From Chlamydiota bacterium (GTDB taxonomy: Bacteria > Chlamydiota > Chlamydiia > Chlamydiales > Parachlamydiaceae): a stretch of DNA of 49,185 bases. Every line of letters begins with the position of its first letter. Position 1 is the stretch's first letter. The stretch lies in contig JABDEI010000002.1 of assembly GCA_013287145.1 (NCBI GenBank), positions 1 through 49,185 of the forward strand, in the 5' to 3' direction. A program made the translations under genes and the position numbers. Under the pieces are notes generated by a model. That model was not told the DNA's origin and did no database searches. It saw nothing but the letters and a program-made list of their open reading frames with translations. Positions 17,108 to 35,850 of this stretch are shown piece by piece.

Positions 17108-18199
17108 ATGAATAAAAGTATTTTAATAGCTTTTTTTAGTTTACTCCTTTTTGGAAGCATTAGCGGATTTTCTTTGCCAATTGTTGAATCACAAAAAGAT
17201 GGAATTGTCACAACCGAAAGTCTGCAAACCCTGCTTCAAAAATATGCAGAAGATAACAAAGTGGTGGGAGTTGCAGTCGGCTTCATCGATCACGGTGCAG
17301 TGCAGTTCTTCTTTTATGGCAACGCGTCAATGCAAGGAGATCCCATATCCGAAGAGACACTCTTTGAAATAGGTTCTATCACGAAAGTTTTTACGGCGTT
17401 AGCATTGATGGATATGGTCGCTAAAGATGAAGTCAAATTAGACGATGCGATTGAAATTCATTTACCCGGCATCCGAATTCCTGAAATTGAAAACAAAAAA
17501 ATCACCCTGCGTCATTTAGCAACGCATCATTCCGGACTTCCGCGAATGCCCAATAATTTCAATCCAAAAAATCCTTCTAACCCTTATGTCGACTACACCA
17601 TTGAAAATCTTTATGATTTTTTAAACCATTATGACTTGCAAAAGGCTCCAGAAGAGCAGTTTGAATATTCTAATCTAGGAATGGGATTGCTGGGCCATAT
17701 TTTGAGTTTGAAAGCCGGTGAAAGCTATGAAGAACTCATCCAAAAACGCATCTGTAATCTATTAGACATGAGAAATACAGCGATTACTTTAACACCAGAG
17801 ATGCAAAAACGTTTTGCAACTGGCCATGAGGATGGAAAAGCAATGGAACATTGGGATATTCCTTACTTAGCAGGAGCCGGAGCCATTCGTTCCAATGTGA
17901 AAGACATGACATTATTTCTTGCTGCTAATATGGGACTTACAGACTCCCCAATTGAAACTCTATTAAAGCAAAGTCATCAAAAACAGTTTTCGATCTCTCC
18001 TACTTTTGAGATAGGTTTGGGATGGCTTATTTCCCCTAACACCGATGCTGAAGTCATTTGGCATAATGGAGCCACAGGCGGATTTAGAACTTTTATCGGC
18101 TTTAATCAAAAAAATCAAAGAGGAGTTGTCGTCTTATCAAATACCACGGGCAGTTGGATTGAAGAGTTTGCATTCGGCCTGCTTAATCAAGAACCTTGA
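17108..18199 (+). CDS. Secreted serine hydrolase, class C beta-lactamase/PBP4* family
   Basis: The 363-residue protein has a signal peptide (residues 1-21) and the catalytic triad motifs of the beta-lactamase/transpeptidase-like superfamily: SITK (Ser90, Lys93), YSN (Tyr187) and HNG (His319) replacing KTG. HxG in the third motif is typical of esterases and D-aminopeptidases of this family as well as of class C-like enzymes, so antibiotic hydrolysis cannot be assumed. It would act in the periplasm or outside. A role in trimming the thin chlamydial peptidoglycan is a possibility only. Confidence 0.85.
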   Translation: MNKSILIAFFSLLLFGSISGFSLPIVESQKDGIVTTESLQTLLQKYAEDNKVVGVAVGFIDHGAVQFFFYGNASMQGDPISEETLFEIGSITKVFTALALMDMVAKDEVKLDDAIEIHLPGIRIPEIENKKITLRHLATHHSGLPRMPNNFNPKNPSNPYVDYTIENLYDFLNHYDLQKAPEEQFEYSNLGMGLLGHILSLKAGESYEELIQKRICNLLDMRNTAITLTPEMQKRFATGHEDGKAMEHWDIPYLAGAGAIRSNVKDMTLFLAANMGLTDSPIETLLKQSHQKQFSISPTFEIGLGWLISPNTDAEVIWHNGATGGFRTFIGFNQKNQRGVVVLSNTTGSWIEEFAFGLLNQEP

Positions 18200-25894: not shown

Positions 25895-28543
<2,649 letters not shown>

Positions 28544-28564
28544 TCATGAGTTTTTGCAGTTTGT

Positions 28565-29245
28565 TTATGGTTTTATCCAAATGCCCCAATCGTTGTTTTC
28601 GCGGAACTCGGCTAATTTGATGCAATTATCATCCAGCCATCTCACTGCTTTGGTATTAGTTCCCCAGGTAATGTCATCAAAAATGATCAACCCGCCTTTT
28701 CTGACTAAAGGAACCCATTTGTTGACGTCTATCCAAGAAGCTTTTTCTGAATGATTGCCATCGATATGCAGCATGTCGATATCGGGTATAAAAGGAGCGC
28801 GTTCTGAAGTTGTCTTGAGGAGTATAATCTGCTCTTCTAGAGCAAATTCTATGATCTTTATTTGGAGGCCTCGCAAAATCCTTTCATGATCGATGCTGCT
28901 CCACCAATCATAATTGACGCTATCCATGCCCTCAGCGGACTCAGCGCTATCCCAGGGATCGATGCCAAAAGCTTTGCCCCTTTGATTGGCTTTAAGGGCA
29001 TAGGCCATGGGAATGAGCGATTTGCCTCCCCACACACCTATTTCGACAATGGTTTGAGGTTTCAGCATAAAAATAAGATCGATCAATACTGACGCTTTGT
29101 TTTTTGAGCACCATCCCTCTAACTGATCCATATAACCAAACGCATTTTGCTTCACAAATTGAATTAAGTCGTGCGTGTCCTTTTTCAACACAACATTTTC
29201 ATAATGAGATTCTGGCTGATGAATTTGATGATCATAGAAATCCAT
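28565..29245 (-). CDS. Class I SAM-dependent methyltransferase (Methyltransf_24 type)
   Basis: The 226-residue protein has the SAM-binding motif IVEIGVWGGKSL (about 66-77), the acidic post-strand motif FGIDPWD and the catalytic-region IDMLHIDGNHSEKASWIDV, which is typical of Methyltransf_24/rhamnosyl O-methyltransferases. It lacks a signal peptide, unlike most neighbours. It is 24 bases upstream of the collagen gene on the same strand. Its closest relatives in the window are the genes at 43923 and 44618. A sugar O-methyltransferase acting on a surface glycan is plausible. Confidence 0.85.
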   Translation of the reverse strand: MDFYDHQIHQPESHYENVVLKKDTHDLIQFVKQNAFGYMDQLEGWCSKNKASVLIDLIFMLKPQTIVEIGVWGGKSLIPMAYALKANQRGKAFGIDPWDSAESAEGMDSVNYDWWSSIDHERILRGLQIKIIEFALEEQIILLKTTSERAPFIPDIDMLHIDGNHSEKASWIDVNKWVPLVRKGGLIIFDDITWGTNTKAVRWLDDNCIKLAEFRENNDWGIWIKP

Positions 29246-29303
29246 GAATCTACTTCCTCTGTGTTGTGTTTAATACTTTTTACAAAATGGAATTTACTAT
29301 TTT

Positions 29304-30332
29304 TTATTTTGCGGAAACCATCGATTTTTTGAGTTCGTTAAGATCTATTGTCGCTATCCAGATCTCGCTATCGTCTTTTCCATAGGCGACGTAGAGTTTG
29401 GAGCCTTTAGCCACAAATCCGCCGGGATAGATCACTCTTTTTTCATAGCTTGAGAAAGTATAAAACCCTGGACTATCTATGGGGGAAGAGCTAATTTTAG
29501 TCATTTCGAAAGGTGGAGTTGCTGAAAAAGTGTAGGCTCCCATGTAATAATGCCACAATTCCCTATTGTCCGAAGAAGGAGAACTTGTCACAATTCCCGA
29601 ATGAAAAAAAGCCAAGTATTCACCATCGATCAACTGGGCAGGAGTTCCGCCCCGAAGAGAACCAAAACCCCAGTCAATTGATTTCTGAGTCTCGTAGCAA
29701 CGCTGACAATACCCATTTTCCAAATCGGGACAAATGATCTCATGAGGGTTTATCATATAGGACAGCAAAAGCATTCCATTCCATTCAAAAGGACTCCAAT
29801 TTTTTTGCCATAAGACATGAGGATATTTTTCTCCGTGGACCAATTTGACTGGATCCGAAAGAAGAAATTGGTCATCAACGAATAAGAGTTCGGCAATATA
29901 CATGTCGCGTCTATCATAAATGGAGGGAAACATCAAATCCGGATTGTCATTGAAGATGACATAAAACTTTCCATTGCATGAAAAGATCCTTGCATCTTCC
30001 GATTGAGATGGGATGCCTTTAAACCTAGTACGCGTATTGAGCAATTCAGCATCGGAAATTGGTTCAAACGATTCATCTAATAAGATGATGCCGATATGAG
30101 AAAGCCATGGTTGAAAAGAGCGACTTGGAAGATATCTAAAGGTCAATAAATAATTATCCTCGAATTTGACAATAGAGGGATTATAGGCACCAGGATAGCT
30201 TGGGATATAGATTCTTTTTGTGGAAGTTACGATCTTTTTTTCACCAAGGGATGCCCGAGATAGCCCAATTCCTGATAATGAACATTGATAAGAGAACAAA
30301 ATCATGAAGCACAATACACATATCTTTTTCAT
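29304..30332 (-). CDS. Exported GH130-like five-bladed propeller protein
   Basis: The 342-residue protein has a signal peptide (residues 1-20) and repeated propeller-blade motifs like those of GH130 beta-mannoside phosphorylases/mannosyltransferases: YNPSIVKFEDNYLLTFR, SEDARIF, KNWSPFEWNG, GGTPAQLIDGEYLAFFHS and YPGGFVAKGSKLYVAYG. The SEDARIF aspartate is where GH130 places its catalytic acid. It could add or cleave mannose-type units on the surface glycan. Similar blades form the C-terminal half of the next protein. Confidence 0.75.
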   Translation of the reverse strand: MKKICVLCFMILFSYQCSLSGIGLSRASLGEKKIVTSTKRIYIPSYPGAYNPSIVKFEDNYLLTFRYLPSRSFQPWLSHIGIILLDESFEPISDAELLNTRTRFKGIPSQSEDARIFSCNGKFYVIFNDNPDLMFPSIYDRRDMYIAELLFVDDQFLLSDPVKLVHGEKYPHVLWQKNWSPFEWNGMLLLSYMINPHEIICPDLENGYCQRCYETQKSIDWGFGSLRGGTPAQLIDGEYLAFFHSGIVTSSPSSDNRELWHYYMGAYTFSATPPFEMTKISSSPIDSPGFYTFSSYEKRVIYPGGFVAKGSKLYVAYGKDDSEIWIATIDLNELKKSMVSAK

Positions 30333-30509
30333 AAAAACCGCTTGTCCTTTAGAGGTGTCCGATTATAGCGAAGAGTAAACTTTTTTTGACTAAATTTGTC
30401 AATTTTTTTATTTGGATAGGAACCTTACAAAATCACAGAGTTTTAAATTTTTTCTTGAAATTCTTCTTTCGAATTTTGTATTCTCCTCTTTGATTACAGG
30501 ATAAGAGAC

Positions 30510-32642
30510 ATGAACTTACAAAAAAAAGCAGCTTTGTTTTTGGCATTAGCGGTGCTAAGCATTCTTTTGTTTCCCAATTCCTTGATGGGAGAAAGAGCCA
30601 AAATCTGTCTGACAATGATTGTCAAAAATGAAGAAAAAATTATCGAGCGCTGTTTAGACAGCGCAAAAGATTGTGTGGATTTCATTTCGATTTGCGATAC
30701 GGGGTCTGATGATCATACAGTGCAAACCATCGAACAATACCTGCAAAAGACAGGTATCCCAGGAAAAGTCCACCGGCATAAATGGAAGAATTTTGGCCAT
30801 AATAGAACCCGTTCTGTTCAAGCAGCCCAAAAAACACTCGATGAACTTGGCTTTCCCTTAGAGAACACCTACTTGCTCCTTCTCGATGCCGACATGATGC
30901 TCACAAAAGATCCTGCTTTCAACAAAGACACTTTGCAGGAAGACTCCTATCTAGTTTCTCAGAATAATCATGATTATTCTTATTACAATACCCGTCTCAT
31001 TCGCGCTTCGTTGCCTTGGCATTGTGTAGGAGTAACGCATGAATATTGGTCGTGCAAGGTTCCCTTTCATGAGTCGAAGCTACAAACCTTAAGCATCGAT
31101 GATCGGGATGACGGCGGTTGCAAGGCAGATAAGTTTGAACGCGACGTCAAGCTGTTAACGCAGGGTCTCCAAGAAGAGCCTGAAAATGTGCGTTATATGT
31201 TTTATTTGGCACAGGCCAATAAAGGTCTTAAAAATTACGATGATTCTATTAAATGGTATAAGGCACGCATCGAGAAGGGTGGATGGAATGAAGAAGTTTG
31301 GTATTCAAAATTTATGATGGGACAGTGTTATGAAGAAAAAGATCAATGGGATCAAGCTCTTCTTTCCTATCTTGATGCTTATCAATTTAATCCAGATCGA
31401 GCAGAACCCCTGCAACAAATTTCCACGCACTATCGCGTAAAGGAACAATATAATCTCGCTTTCTTGTTTGCCAAACAGGGTTCCCGCATTCCCTATCCTC
31501 ATGAACAGATTTTATTTATATCTAATCCCGTTTATGACTACCTATTCGATCAAGATCTTTCCATTGCTGCTTATTACACTCCATACAAAGAAGAAGGCTT
31601 TGCAGCTACCAATCGCTTGGTGTTGAAAAAAAATATCCCCTATTACATCAAAGAGCAGTCATATAAAAATATGCTCTTCTATGTACAAAACTTAAAAAAT
31701 GCTAAATATCAACCTATAGAAATCGATCTACCGCTTATTCGCGAGGGCTTTGCTGCTCATTTCAACCCGATGAATCCCTCCATTCGCAAAACAAAAAAAG
31801 GGTATGACGTCATTTGTCGAACTGTAAACTACATGCAAATAGGTGCTAAACATTTCAAATCACTCGATTTGTTTGATACGACAAATACGGTTAAAACAAG
31901 GAACTTCCTTATCCAATACGATCGAGATTTTAATGTTCTTTCACAAAAAGAAATTATTGAAGAGCTGCCGCGCGAAAGAAAACGATTTCTCAATGTGGAA
32001 GGGCTTGAAGATTGCCGCCTCTTTGCGTTTAAAAATTCTACTTGGTTTACCTGCACTACCCTTGACACAAATCCTACCGGGCAGCCTCAAGTATCTTTAT
32101 GCAGATTGGCAGACGAGAGAGCTGGCCCCATCATTAATGTAGAGGGATTATTTCCTTTATTCGGACCCGATCCTTATAGATGTGAAAAAAATTGGTTGCC
32201 ATTTATTAAAGATAACGCACTCCATCTGATCTACTCCTTCGATCCCTTTATCATTTATAAGCCAAACATAGAAATGGATTCTTTCATGAATCGCGAGATC
32301 ATGGCCCATTATGAAGAACCAAAACATGACTTTTCCCGCTTTTCAGGTTCTGCACCTCCTATAAAATTCGACAATGGTTATTTATTACTTGTTCATGAAA
32401 CCGTTTACAATGAGCAGCGCAATTATATGCATCGTTTCATCTACCTTGATGAAAATTTTAATTTGAAACAGATTTCCAAACCATTCACCTTTTTACATCA
32501 TGGCGTTGAATATTGTTGTGGAATGACCAAAGATCATTCGGCAACGAAACTCATCATGTCTATTGGCATAGAAGATAGAGAGGCTTATTTGTGTACGGTA
32601 GATCTAGATACCGTCCGTTCATTGCTGGAACCTCTTCCTTGA
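30510..32642 (+). CDS. GT2 glycosyltransferase-TPR-GH130-like fusion with signal peptide
   Basis: This 710-residue protein has three modules after a signal peptide (1-27). The first is a GT2 domain with MIVKNEE (36-42), DTGSDD (63-68) and the metal motif LDADMM (125-130). The second is a TPR-like helical region (about 225-335). The third is a GH130-like propeller (about 400-705; VEGLEDCRLF, EKNWLPF, GSAPPIKFDNGYLLLVHE). The fusion pairs a sugar-adding domain with a mannoside phosphorylase-like one. AGGATAAGAG precedes the ATG. It is transcribed against its neighbours and its stop is one base from the stop of the convergent barrel-protein gene. Confidence 0.85.
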   Translation: MNLQKKAALFLALAVLSILLFPNSLMGERAKICLTMIVKNEEKIIERCLDSAKDCVDFISICDTGSDDHTVQTIEQYLQKTGIPGKVHRHKWKNFGHNRTRSVQAAQKTLDELGFPLENTYLLLLDADMMLTKDPAFNKDTLQEDSYLVSQNNHDYSYYNTRLIRASLPWHCVGVTHEYWSCKVPFHESKLQTLSIDDRDDGGCKADKFERDVKLLTQGLQEEPENVRYMFYLAQANKGLKNYDDSIKWYKARIEKGGWNEEVWYSKFMMGQCYEEKDQWDQALLSYLDAYQFNPDRAEPLQQISTHYRVKEQYNLAFLFAKQGSRIPYPHEQILFISNPVYDYLFDQDLSIAAYYTPYKEEGFAATNRLVLKKNIPYYIKEQSYKNMLFYVQNLKNAKYQPIEIDLPLIREGFAAHFNPMNPSIRKTKKGYDVICRTVNYMQIGAKHFKSLDLFDTTNTVKTRNFLIQYDRDFNVLSQKEIIEELPRERKRFLNVEGLEDCRLFAFKNSTWFTCTTLDTNPTGQPQVSLCRLADERAGPIINVEGLFPLFGPDPYRCEKNWLPFIKDNALHLIYSFDPFIIYKPNIEMDSFMNREIMAHYEEPKHDFSRFSGSAPPIKFDNGYLLLVHETVYNEQRNYMHRFIYLDENFNLKQISKPFTFLHHGVEYCCGMTKDHSATKLIMSIGIEDREAYLCTVDLDTVRSLLEPLP

Positions 32643-32643
32643 G

Positions 32644-35469
32644 TTAATTGCAACTCTGGCAAGAGGAAGTGCCAAAATTCGATTTCCAGCGGCTCCTCCT
32701 ATCTAACACAATTATTTCGCGTCTTCGAACAGGTAAAAAGAACGTCTGATCGCAGCAGAAGTTAAAAGGATATGTTAAAGATATTTCACCCTGGATTCTT
32801 GTTTTGAAAGTTGAATCATGGGTGACACTGATGCTAAAAGAAAGATTATCACAATACCGTGACGTTAATCTGTATTCCGTTCCGTAAATGTCTCTACGGC
32901 ACCTATCCTCTTTATAATAATAAGCCCCCATCGCAAGATAAAAATCTATACAACACATTCTCATTAAATGGGACTCTAGTTCAAAATCAACTCCTCTAAG
33001 ACTGTTGAGATAATTTCTCCGACTTATGAAAAAGTCTCCGATAAAATCATCAAAAAAACAAGAGGAAACAAGCACTTTCTTCTTTCCTATAGGCAAATAT
33101 CCATTGATTCGCAAGTTCCAACACTTTCCAAGCATTTCAAATCCCACACCAAGTTGATTGAATTTGACATGATGGGCATTTCTATAATCATAATAGGCAT
33201 TTATTCCAAAGACTTGGTCTGTGAATTGCGGAGCAAATCTACAGCCAACTCCTAAATTGCCCGCATATTTATCACCCTTATCAAAACGATGGGCTCGCAA
33301 GTCCAAAAATGGCCACCAATTTTGATAATGAAAAGGAAAAGAAAGGGCTTCTATCGTCGTATAGCTGGTGTCATTTCCTATTGACTGCCCTTGATTTCGC
33401 CGTAGTGATAAAAAATATTGAGCATTGCTTGGAACCACAAACTCAACAAGCTCATCTGCACTAACGGGTCTCACAGAGACTACTGATCCAACAGGTTCGA
33501 GGGGTTCGACAGGGCCTACTACTTGCTGTACGGAACCTCCGGGATCGATTGAATCCTCAATAACGGGCATCACTGGTAGATTCGATTGATCCTGTTGTTC
33601 TTGTCGAACTTGTTGATCCTTTTGGTCCGCCAGTTGCTCCTGTTGAGTCCCTAGAAGCCGCGCTTCTAGTACCCATGTTGACATTTGCTCCAGTCGAATC
33701 CTCGGGTTCTGTTGAACTCTACTAATGGGTCTCATAGGAACAACTGATCCAACAGATTTGACAGGTTCGACCGGACCTACTTGTTCTTGTCGAATTTGTT
33801 GACCTTTTTGGTCCGCCAGTTGCTCCTGTTGAGTCCCTAGAAGCCGCGCTTCTAGTACCCATGTTGACATTTGCTCCAGTCGAACCCTCGGGTTCTGTTG
33901 AACTCTACTAACGGGTCTCATAGGAACAACTGATCCAACAGATTCAACAGGTTCGACCGGACCTACTAGCTTTACGGAATCCACTAGATCGATTGAACCC
34001 ACAACGGGCATCGCCGGTGGGTTCGATTGATCCTTTTGTTCTTGTCGAACTTGTTGATTCTTTTGGTCCGCCAGTTGGTTCTGGTGAGTCCTTAGGACCC
34101 GCGCTTTTAGTAACATTTGCTCCAGTCGAACCCTGGGGTTCTGGTGAACTCTACTAACGAGTTCTACAGGGGCTACTAATCCAACAGATTCGACAGGTTC
34201 GACCGGACCTATTCGCTGTACGGAATCTACGGGCTCGATTGAACCCATAATGGGCATCACCGCTAGGTTCAATTGATCCTGTTGTTCCTGCCCAACTTGT
34301 TGTTCTTGTTGGTCCGTCAGTTGGCCCTGTTGAGTTTCTAGGATCCGCGCTTTTAGGACCCATGTTGACATTTGTTCGAGTTGAATCCTCGGGTTCTGTT
34401 GAACTCCACTAACAAGTTCCACAGGGGTTACTGATTCAACGGGTTCGAGAGCTTCGACAGGAGCTACTAGCTGTACGGAACCTGCGGGGTCGTTTGAACA
34501 AATAGCAAGCATCATCGGTAAGTTCAATTCCCGTTGATCTTGTCGATCTTTTTGGTAGGCCAGTTTGCCCTGTTGAGTCCTTAAGATCCGCGCTTCAAGG
34601 ACCCGCTTCAGTCGAACCCTTGGGTTCTGTTGAACTCCACTAACAGGTTCCACAGGGGTTACTGATTCAACGGGTTCGAGAGGAGCTATTAGAGGTTCGA
34701 CAGGAGCTACTAGCTGTACGGAACCTGCGGGGTCGTTTGAACAAATAGCAAGCATCATCGGTAAGTTCAATTCCTGTTGATCTTGTTGATCTTTTTGGTA
34801 GGCCAGTTTGCCCTGTTGAGTCCTTAAGATCCGCGCTTCTAGGACCCGCTTCAGTCGAACCCTTGGGTTCTGTTGAACTCCACTAACAGGTTCCACAGGG
34901 GCTACTGATCCAACGGGTTCGAGAGCTTCGAAAGGAGCTATTAGCTGTGCGGAACCTACGGGATCAATTGAACCACTAACAGGCATCACTGGCAAATTCG
35001 ATTCCTGTTGATCTTGTCGATCTTGTTGGTCTTCTTGGTCCGCCAGTGGGTCCTGTTGATTTTCTAGGACCCGCGCTTGTAGGACCCATGCTGACATTTG
35101 CTCGAGTCGAACCCTCGGGTTCTGTTGAATTCCACCAACGGGTTCCACAGGGGGGACTAATCCAACAGATTCAACAGGTTCGACAGAACCTACTAGCTGT
35201 ACGGAATCTATGGGATCGGGATCGATTGAACCCACAACGGGCATCGCTGGTGGGTTCGATTGATCCTTTTGTTCTTGTCGAACTTGTTGATCTTCTTTGT
35301 CCGCCAGTTGCTCCTGTTGATTCCCTAGGAGCCGCGCTTGTAGGACCCATGTTGACATTTGCTCCAGTCGAACCCTCGGGTTCTGTTGAACTCCAAGGGA
35401 ACCTAATATAGTCGCAGAAAATGCTATCGATAGAAGAAAAAAAATAATAAAATTTGAAAAATTGTTCAT
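32644..35469 (-). CDS. Inverse-autotransporter-like barrel protein with eight N-terminal repeats
   Basis: The 941-residue protein has a signal peptide (1-24). Eight degenerate repeats of about 65-90 residues follow (about 26-690), each starting near (G/R)VQQNPRVRLEQM and rich in Gln, Val, Pro and Glu. The C-terminal domain (about 695-941) resembles the inverse autotransporter beta-domain: LSLRRNQGQSIG, WPFLDLRAHRFDKGDKYAGN, GVGCRFAP, FGINAYYDYR. That domain has many cysteines (CRFAP, CCIDF, CQSCN), consistent with the disulfide-linked chlamydial outer membrane. The usual order (barrel before passenger) is reversed here, so the repeats would be periplasmic or exposed by another route. Confidence 0.8.
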   Translation of the reverse strand: MNNFSNFIIFFLLSIAFSATILGSLGVQQNPRVRLEQMSTWVLQARLLGNQQEQLADKEDQQVRQEQKDQSNPPAMPVVGSIDPDPIDSVQLVGSVEPVESVGLVPPVEPVGGIQQNPRVRLEQMSAWVLQARVLENQQDPLADQEDQQDRQDQQESNLPVMPVSGSIDPVGSAQLIAPFEALEPVGSVAPVEPVSGVQQNPRVRLKRVLEARILRTQQGKLAYQKDQQDQQELNLPMMLAICSNDPAGSVQLVAPVEPLIAPLEPVESVTPVEPVSGVQQNPRVRLKRVLEARILRTQQGKLAYQKDRQDQRELNLPMMLAICSNDPAGSVQLVAPVEALEPVESVTPVELVSGVQQNPRIQLEQMSTWVLKARILETQQGQLTDQQEQQVGQEQQDQLNLAVMPIMGSIEPVDSVQRIGPVEPVESVGLVAPVELVSRVHQNPRVRLEQMLLKARVLRTHQNQLADQKNQQVRQEQKDQSNPPAMPVVGSIDLVDSVKLVGPVEPVESVGSVVPMRPVSRVQQNPRVRLEQMSTWVLEARLLGTQQEQLADQKGQQIRQEQVGPVEPVKSVGSVVPMRPISRVQQNPRIRLEQMSTWVLEARLLGTQQEQLADQKDQQVRQEQQDQSNLPVMPVIEDSIDPGGSVQQVVGPVEPLEPVGSVVSVRPVSADELVEFVVPSNAQYFLSLRRNQGQSIGNDTSYTTIEALSFPFHYQNWWPFLDLRAHRFDKGDKYAGNLGVGCRFAPQFTDQVFGINAYYDYRNAHHVKFNQLGVGFEMLGKCWNLRINGYLPIGKKKVLVSSCFFDDFIGDFFISRRNYLNSLRGVDFELESHLMRMCCIDFYLAMGAYYYKEDRCRRDIYGTEYRLTSRYCDNLSFSISVTHDSTFKTRIQGEISLTYPFNFCCDQTFFLPVRRREIIVLDRRSRWKSNFGTSSCQSCN
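33470..35400 (-). repeat. Passenger repeat array of the barrel protein
   Basis: Eight DNA repeats of roughly 190-300 bp encode the (G/R)VQQNPR units. Units 3 and 4 are shortened (KRVLEARIL replaces EQMSTWVLEARLL) and nearly identical to each other. Read one frame off, the DNA gives Gly-rich text such as STGANVNMGPT and ESTGATGG, resembling the collagen gene. Confidence 0.7.
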
Positions 35470-35800: not shown

Positions 35801-35850
35801 GCTGGACTTTGCACATCTGGAAGCTAGCTTCCAGATGTGCAAAGTCCAGC
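35801..35850. repeat. Perfect 50-bp palindrome without spacer
   Basis: The two 25-base halves (GCTGGACTTTGCACATCTGG... to the centre AAGCT/AGCTT) are exact reverse complements. Symmetry ends sharply at 35800/35851. It can form a loopless cruciform. No T tract flanks it. Confidence 0.8.

Follow-up and report, generated by a model that had tools for sequence, protein, structure and literature searches.

Introduction

Frameshifts within tandem repeats can generate new protein structures (Osmanli et al., 2025; PMC12871928). That survey of 50 proteomes includes a zebrafish protein whose main frame is predicted to be helical and whose shifted frame spells a perfect collagen pattern. Overprinting is also known from viral de novo genes (PMC3744397). 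New protein segments whose descent from an older repeat in a different frame can still be recognized are rare, as the trace is soon lost. Two further groups of proteins bear on the locus described below, namely the inverse autotransporters (type Ve), such as intimin and invasin, and the bacterial collagen-like proteins, such as Lcl, Scl and BclA.

The locus lies in a 49,185-nt stretch of the genome of a Chlamydiota bacterium (Parachlamydiaceae; contig JABDEI010000002.1), hereafter the window. As in the work of Osmanli et al. (2025), collagen-type and helix-type sequence occupy two frames of one stretch. Whereas the zebrafish case is eukaryotic and confined to one strand, the present one is bacterial, its collagen frame has decayed and its second half is collagen-like on the opposite strand. 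A new reading frame lies over an older one, as in overprinted viral genes (PMC3744397); here, however, the older frame does not persist as an overlapping gene but seems to have been given up after it was copied. The encoded protein shares a homologous barrel (IAT_beta; PDB 4e1t, 4e1s) with intimin and invasin, but it has no C-terminal passenger and carries a long N-terminal repeat region instead. A neighbouring gene is of the Lcl, Scl and BclA kind, whereas the repeats have no Gly-X-Y in their coding frame. On balance, we lean towards the view that these repeats are GXT collagen-type DNA now read in non-collagen frames, that the unit was amplified to eight copies and that the collagen frame has since decayed.

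Results

Architecture of the barrel protein and its repeats

The barrel forms about residues 691-941 of a 941-residue protein, so the end of the protein is the end of the barrel (Table 1). It matches Pfam IAT_beta (E 5e-8), which was found in 14 of 16 members of the barrel alignment, and a profile built from that alignment matched the solved structures of invasin (4e1t, E 4.5e-9) and intimin (4e1s, E 9.5e-8). A single-sequence model of the barrel was discarded (pLDDT 29). The paralogue L002 does have a C-terminal passenger. Upstream of the gene, an intergenic, perfect 50-bp palindrome (25-nt arms, no loop; window 35801-35850) is present as a single copy in the genome at ≤3 mismatches.

The original prediction had extended the repeats over 32644-35400 and called them a passenger. 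The repeats are real and occupy the interval given in Table 1, but 32644-33399 is the barrel. The repeats come before the barrel and are therefore not properly called a passenger; they would lie on the periplasmic side if the topology is intimin-like.

Table 1. Coordinates of features at the locus (window positions)
Feature	Position	Strand	Remarks
Whole gene	32644..35469	-	941 aa: probable signal peptide, eight repeats, barrel
Probable signal peptide, MNNFSNFIIFFLLSIAFSATILG	35401..35469	-	Predicted from sequence; N-terminus of repeat-less orthologues at same position
Eight tandem repeats	33460..35391	-	aa 27-670; probably overprinted on collagen-type DNA
Repeat unit 1	35131..35391	-	First ~131 nt collagen-like on same strand, remainder on opposite strand
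Repeat unit 2	34879..35130	-	
Repeat unit 3	34636..34878	-	More diverged; 98% identity with unit 4
Repeat unit 4	34405..34635	-	More diverged
Repeat unit 5	34150..34404	-	
Repeat unit 6	33904..34149	-	
Repeat unit 7	33718..33903	-	62 aa, middle missing
Repeat unit 8	33460..33717	-	Strongest same-strand collagen likeness among units
Intimin/invasin-type outer-membrane barrel	32644..33399	-	Pfam IAT_beta; profile matches; nothing C-terminal of it
Short inverted repeat, unit 1	35219..35266	.	17-nt arms, 14-nt loop; junction of the unit's two collagen-like halves
Short inverted repeat, unit 6 counterpart	33987-34032		
GXT collagen-like gene, BclA-like head	25895..28540	-	PF01391 E 6e-97; "BclA-like" judged by eye
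Wrong-frame open stretch of collagen gene, Gln/Val-rich	26386..27789	-	Frame corresponding to first half of repeats
Opposite-strand open stretch of collagen gene, GPV/EPV/APV	26577..28037	+	Frame corresponding to second half of repeats

The eight units are 62-87 residues long, typically about 80. The first half of a unit is rich in Gln, Glu and Leu and is predicted to be helical, and the second half is a Pro-Val linker predicted to be disordered. An AlphaFold model of two units, with other unit pairs supplied as the alignment, gave a helix of ~41 residues followed by disorder; in the first modelled unit, the mean pLDDT of the helix was 72-76 over its best part. The segments GPVEPVESVG and QQVRQEQ, to which the original prediction had drawn attention, are indeed in the coding frame, and the collagen-like strings that it had read one frame off are present as well, frame +2 giving SSTEPEGSTGANVNMGPTSAAPRESTGATGG and GGPKGSTSSTRTTGS. 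The Pfam collagen profile found nothing in the repeats at E<=0.001, so a profile search alone would overlook repeats of this type. Weak Pfam matches to Inhibitor_I10 and DUF2264_C were rejected as chance, since no stretch passes alone.

Wrong frames of the collagen-like gene

The 9-nt pattern of the collagen-like gene, GGN NCN ACN, turns into CNA CNG GNN when the same strand is read one base off and into GTN GNN CCN when the opposite strand is read. Stop codons are impossible in either of these, so that GXT collagen DNA gives long open frames at once; in this gene, the two longest-open wrong frames run to 569 codons on the same strand and 555 on the opposite strand. One of these ready-made frames is Gln/Val/Glu-rich, the other Pro/Val/Gly-rich, and both are represented in the repeat unit.

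Similarity of the repeats to collagen DNA

On the same strand, the first ~130 nt of each repeat resemble GXT-collagen DNA, and they do so in a single shifted frame throughout; the remainder resembles it on the opposite strand, again in a single frame. G-x-T counts in the repeats are 21 on the same strand and 25 on the opposite strand. Their sum of 46 was reached in 2 of 3000 codon-column permutations and the TG count in none of 3000; columns were permuted coherently over all repeats, which keeps the pseudo-replication of the repeats in the null. Aligned to the collagen repeat DNA of 25895-28540, the repeats reach a Smith-Waterman score of 47 on either strand, compared with 24.5+-3.5 (same strand) and 23.0+-2.9 (opposite strand) after permutation. 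None of the 150 permutations reached 47, and the maximum among 40 other chunks of the window was 25. The DNA similarity above composition-matched controls on which the original prediction had staked itself is therefore present.

Genome-wide searches agree. When the repeat region was searched against the 2.17-Mb genome, the best non-self matches were all to the collagen gene (E 3e-4 to 2e-3); in the reverse search, the repeat region was the best match of the collagen gene after one short true collagen. In most units, the first ~131 nt are covered in one direction by a cyclic 9-mer profile made from the genome's own collagen; in the other direction the profile runs from the other end of the units, and the two together account for most of each unit. 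All 15 same-strand local alignments share a single frame offset at both ends, although a long gapped one departs from it internally, and all nine opposite-strand alignments fall in one other offset. These two offsets are those of the collagen gene's two long-open wrong frames. Identity between repeats and collagen is only about 70-80%, over short stretches and with gaps needed.

Such a resemblance could arise by convergence, in that two ordinary low-complexity segments, the Gln/Glu-rich helix and the Pro-Val linker, both of three-residue periodicity, might spell GXT out of frame by chance, with no part played by collagen DNA. The 9-nt pattern is simple, Pro-Val repeats yield the opposite-strand signal with any codons, and BLASTP gave no significant match between the first half and the wrong-frame product of the collagen gene. 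(A BLASTP match with the GPV wrong frame, E 2e-14, was discounted as evidence, since composition and the Pro-Val period could suffice.) Against convergence stands the background set of 4001 non-collagen segments of 260 nt from 1.04 Mb of related DNA. Every inspected segment scoring above 30 on the 9-mer profile was in-frame collagen or Gly-rich coding DNA, and no inspected segment lacking Gly-rich sequence scored as high as the repeats. The highest weaker-strand background score was 25.5, at the edge of a collagen gene, compared with 28-39 for the units (23 for unit 4), and no segment equalled seven of the eight units on both strands simultaneously. The two halves, moreover, fall into the collagen gene's two long-open wrong frames, and helices have no reason for a period of three. 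The lag-9 z is 3.1 in the first half and 7.1 in the second. Coiled coils are expected to show a heptad at lag 21; lag 21 is not raised in the repeats, and there is no heptad. Together with the excess over several synonymous nulls described below, these observations make convergence unlikely in our estimation. One high scorer on the 9-mer profile, an intergenic-looking tandem array around position 1040 of L082, reads GRKGRKGRKG and is not collagen.

The original prediction had proposed a comparison of the repeats with the collagen DNA at 25.9-28.5 kb. The collagen gene there is about 5 kb distant and has the top score among 24 collagen stretches from relatives, which makes it the nearest candidate for the source of the repeat DNA, or for a sister of that source. 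A short collagen from another genome scores close to it and, because the collagens of other genomes are nearly as good, the source is best described as GXT collagen DNA rather than as a specific gene.

The amino-acid sequence and the two halves of the unit

The same-strand similarity is not forced by the amino-acid sequence. In units 1, 2, 5, 6, 7 and 8 the observed same-strand score was 24-33, against 15-19 under synonymous codons, and was reached in 0-1 of 300 synonymous replicates; the consensus scored 29, against 16.6+-2.9, and none of 1000 replicates reached 29. The excess persists when the replicates follow genome codon usage, and also when codon choice takes account of the next base. 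Under a null that preserves dinucleotides within units, 0-2 of 300 replicates reached the same-strand score, except for unit 2 (39 of 300). The diverged units 3 and 4 did not convincingly exceed the synonymous null. An older frame is accordingly detectable beyond protein constraint in the same-strand half of six of the eight units and in the consensus. Shifted-frame collagen-type DNA on the same strand, as originally proposed, is borne out by this excess and by the common offset of the alignments, and an origin of the repeats from collagen DNA by a same-strand frameshift is likely.

For the opposite-strand half, the score was about unchanged under synonymous codons because X-Pro-Val is GXT on the other strand with any codons; the Pro-Val pattern is enough to explain the similarity in full, and no older frame was detected beyond protein constraint. 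It may be asked whether only the first half of the unit descends from collagen DNA, with the Pro-Val linker independent or taken from another spacer. The confinement of the synonymous-site evidence to the first half fits such an origin, as does the pattern of self-complementarity, the two halves being significantly self-complementary only in units 1 and 6 and the consensus weakly so. Yet it is the second half that has the cleaner 9-nt array (the z of 7.1 given above), that keeps a single collagen-gene offset in nine alignments and whose consensus outscores every copy on the collagen profile. We consider a collagen origin of the first half alone decidedly improbable. The proposal that the copy was partly inverted thus holds as far as the single offset and the strong 9-nt period, and fails to show an excess at synonymous codons; an inversion of collagen DNA is a plausible origin of the opposite-strand half. 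The inverted repeats in units 1 and 6 are possibly the trace of a fold-back junction. The fold z of unit 1 is -2.9. A hairpin or palindrome as the main feature of the repeats was rejected, since inverted arms reach significance in no units but 1 and 6; the signal is weak or missing in the other units and weak in the consensus.

Probable decay of the collagen frame and history of the repeats

Among units, dN/dS is 0.61 and 0.78 for the coding frame and 1.65 for the collagen-side frame. The coding frame is under mild constraint and the collagen-side frame under none. These values bear on a further possibility, that the collagen-like frame is an overlapping gene still in use or is expressed by frameshifting. 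Although seven of the eight units have a +2 frame that stays open for 50-82 residues, stops occur inside nearly every unit (in unit 4 at residue 12), and these stops, together with the dN/dS of 1.65, led us to reject a functional overlapping frame as hardly credible. The ancestral collagen frame is no longer maintained. On both strands the 9-mer collagen profile gives the consensus unit a higher score than the average copy, as would be expected of an ancestral pattern in decay.

Orthologous barrels lack the repeats. In G012, the orthologue adjoins the same glycosyltransferase gene and its signal peptide is joined directly to the barrel; the orthologue in G027 is built likewise. The repeats were sought in 234 genomes of the order and found in none, nor did these relatives contain the intermediate forms that the original prediction had suggested looking for. 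Given the repeat-less orthologues and this absence, the repeats were gained in this lineage, a reading limited by the 57% completeness of the organism's own genome and by incomplete neighbouring genomes. In G027, a small gene without collagen repeats (L013/L063:113-685) precedes the barrel orthologue, with a gap of about 20 bp between them, and has a BclA_C-like head (E 5e-6, below the family cut-off).

Collagen-like genes beside passenger-less barrels

A collagen-like gene lies within 4.5 kb of 16 of 57 passenger-less barrels, and on the same strand within 300 bp of 13 of the 57, a set that includes the present gene with its collagen gene 4.1 kb away. No such neighbour accompanies any of 31 passenger-bearing barrels (Fisher p 8e-4, from counts that ignore shared ancestry) or any of 40 control stretches. 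Loci that combine the two genes are L078, L079, L080, L082, L115, L121, L126, L127, L133, L149-L151, L153 and window 25895-35469. The association suggests that the barrel and the collagen-like protein work together as a partner system; the literature that we searched held no paper linking collagen-like genes with intimin-type barrels in this group. With collagen genes recurrent beside passenger-less barrels in relatives, collagen DNA was at hand for the present barrel gene.

Other passenger-less barrels of relatives have N-terminal low-complexity extensions of 180-290 residues with unrelated sequences (L080:2227-3852, L084:3189-4526, L085:3419-4873, L096:3888-5255, L129:889-2382), among which the present N-terminus of 690 residues is extreme. 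The wider surroundings (window 22989-45000) hold glycosyltransferase-type genes (GT92, GT2, GT10 fucosyltransferase-like), a methyltransferase and a DUF1796 gene, and resemble a surface-glycan region. Elsewhere in the window, an ORF at 9234-10727 has a sub-threshold NCBIfam match to sphingomyelin phosphodiesterase (E 1e-10), and one at 17108-18199 has a below-cut-off NCBIfam match to class C beta-lactamase/AmpH-like proteins (E 6e-46).

Discussion

The case is a bacterial relative of the frameshifted-repeat idea (PMC12871928), with an opposite-strand half added. We infer a direction of descent from collagen to repeat. The repeat region would have started as DNA of a GXT-type collagen-like gene, and a unit would have been formed from a same-strand stretch read one base off, followed by a reversed collagen stretch. 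This unit would then have been multiplied to eight copies between the signal peptide and the intimin-type barrel, after which the collagen frame would have decayed. For the full account, in which both strands of collagen-gene DNA supplied the repeat unit and its eightfold amplification made an alternating helix/linker spacer on an outer-membrane barrel, we consider the chances to be even. The repeats may serve as an N-terminal, probably periplasmic, spacer or tether in which helices alternate with extended Pro-Val linkers, a location and function that we infer from their architecture.

If the origin of the repeats in collagen-type DNA is true, GXT collagen DNA would be a ready source from which new proteins could emerge, since two of its wrong frames are free of stops. 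The rule of two stop-free frames makes it possible to predict the repetitive genes from which new proteins can arise, and the many bacteria that carry GXT collagens offer a test of it.
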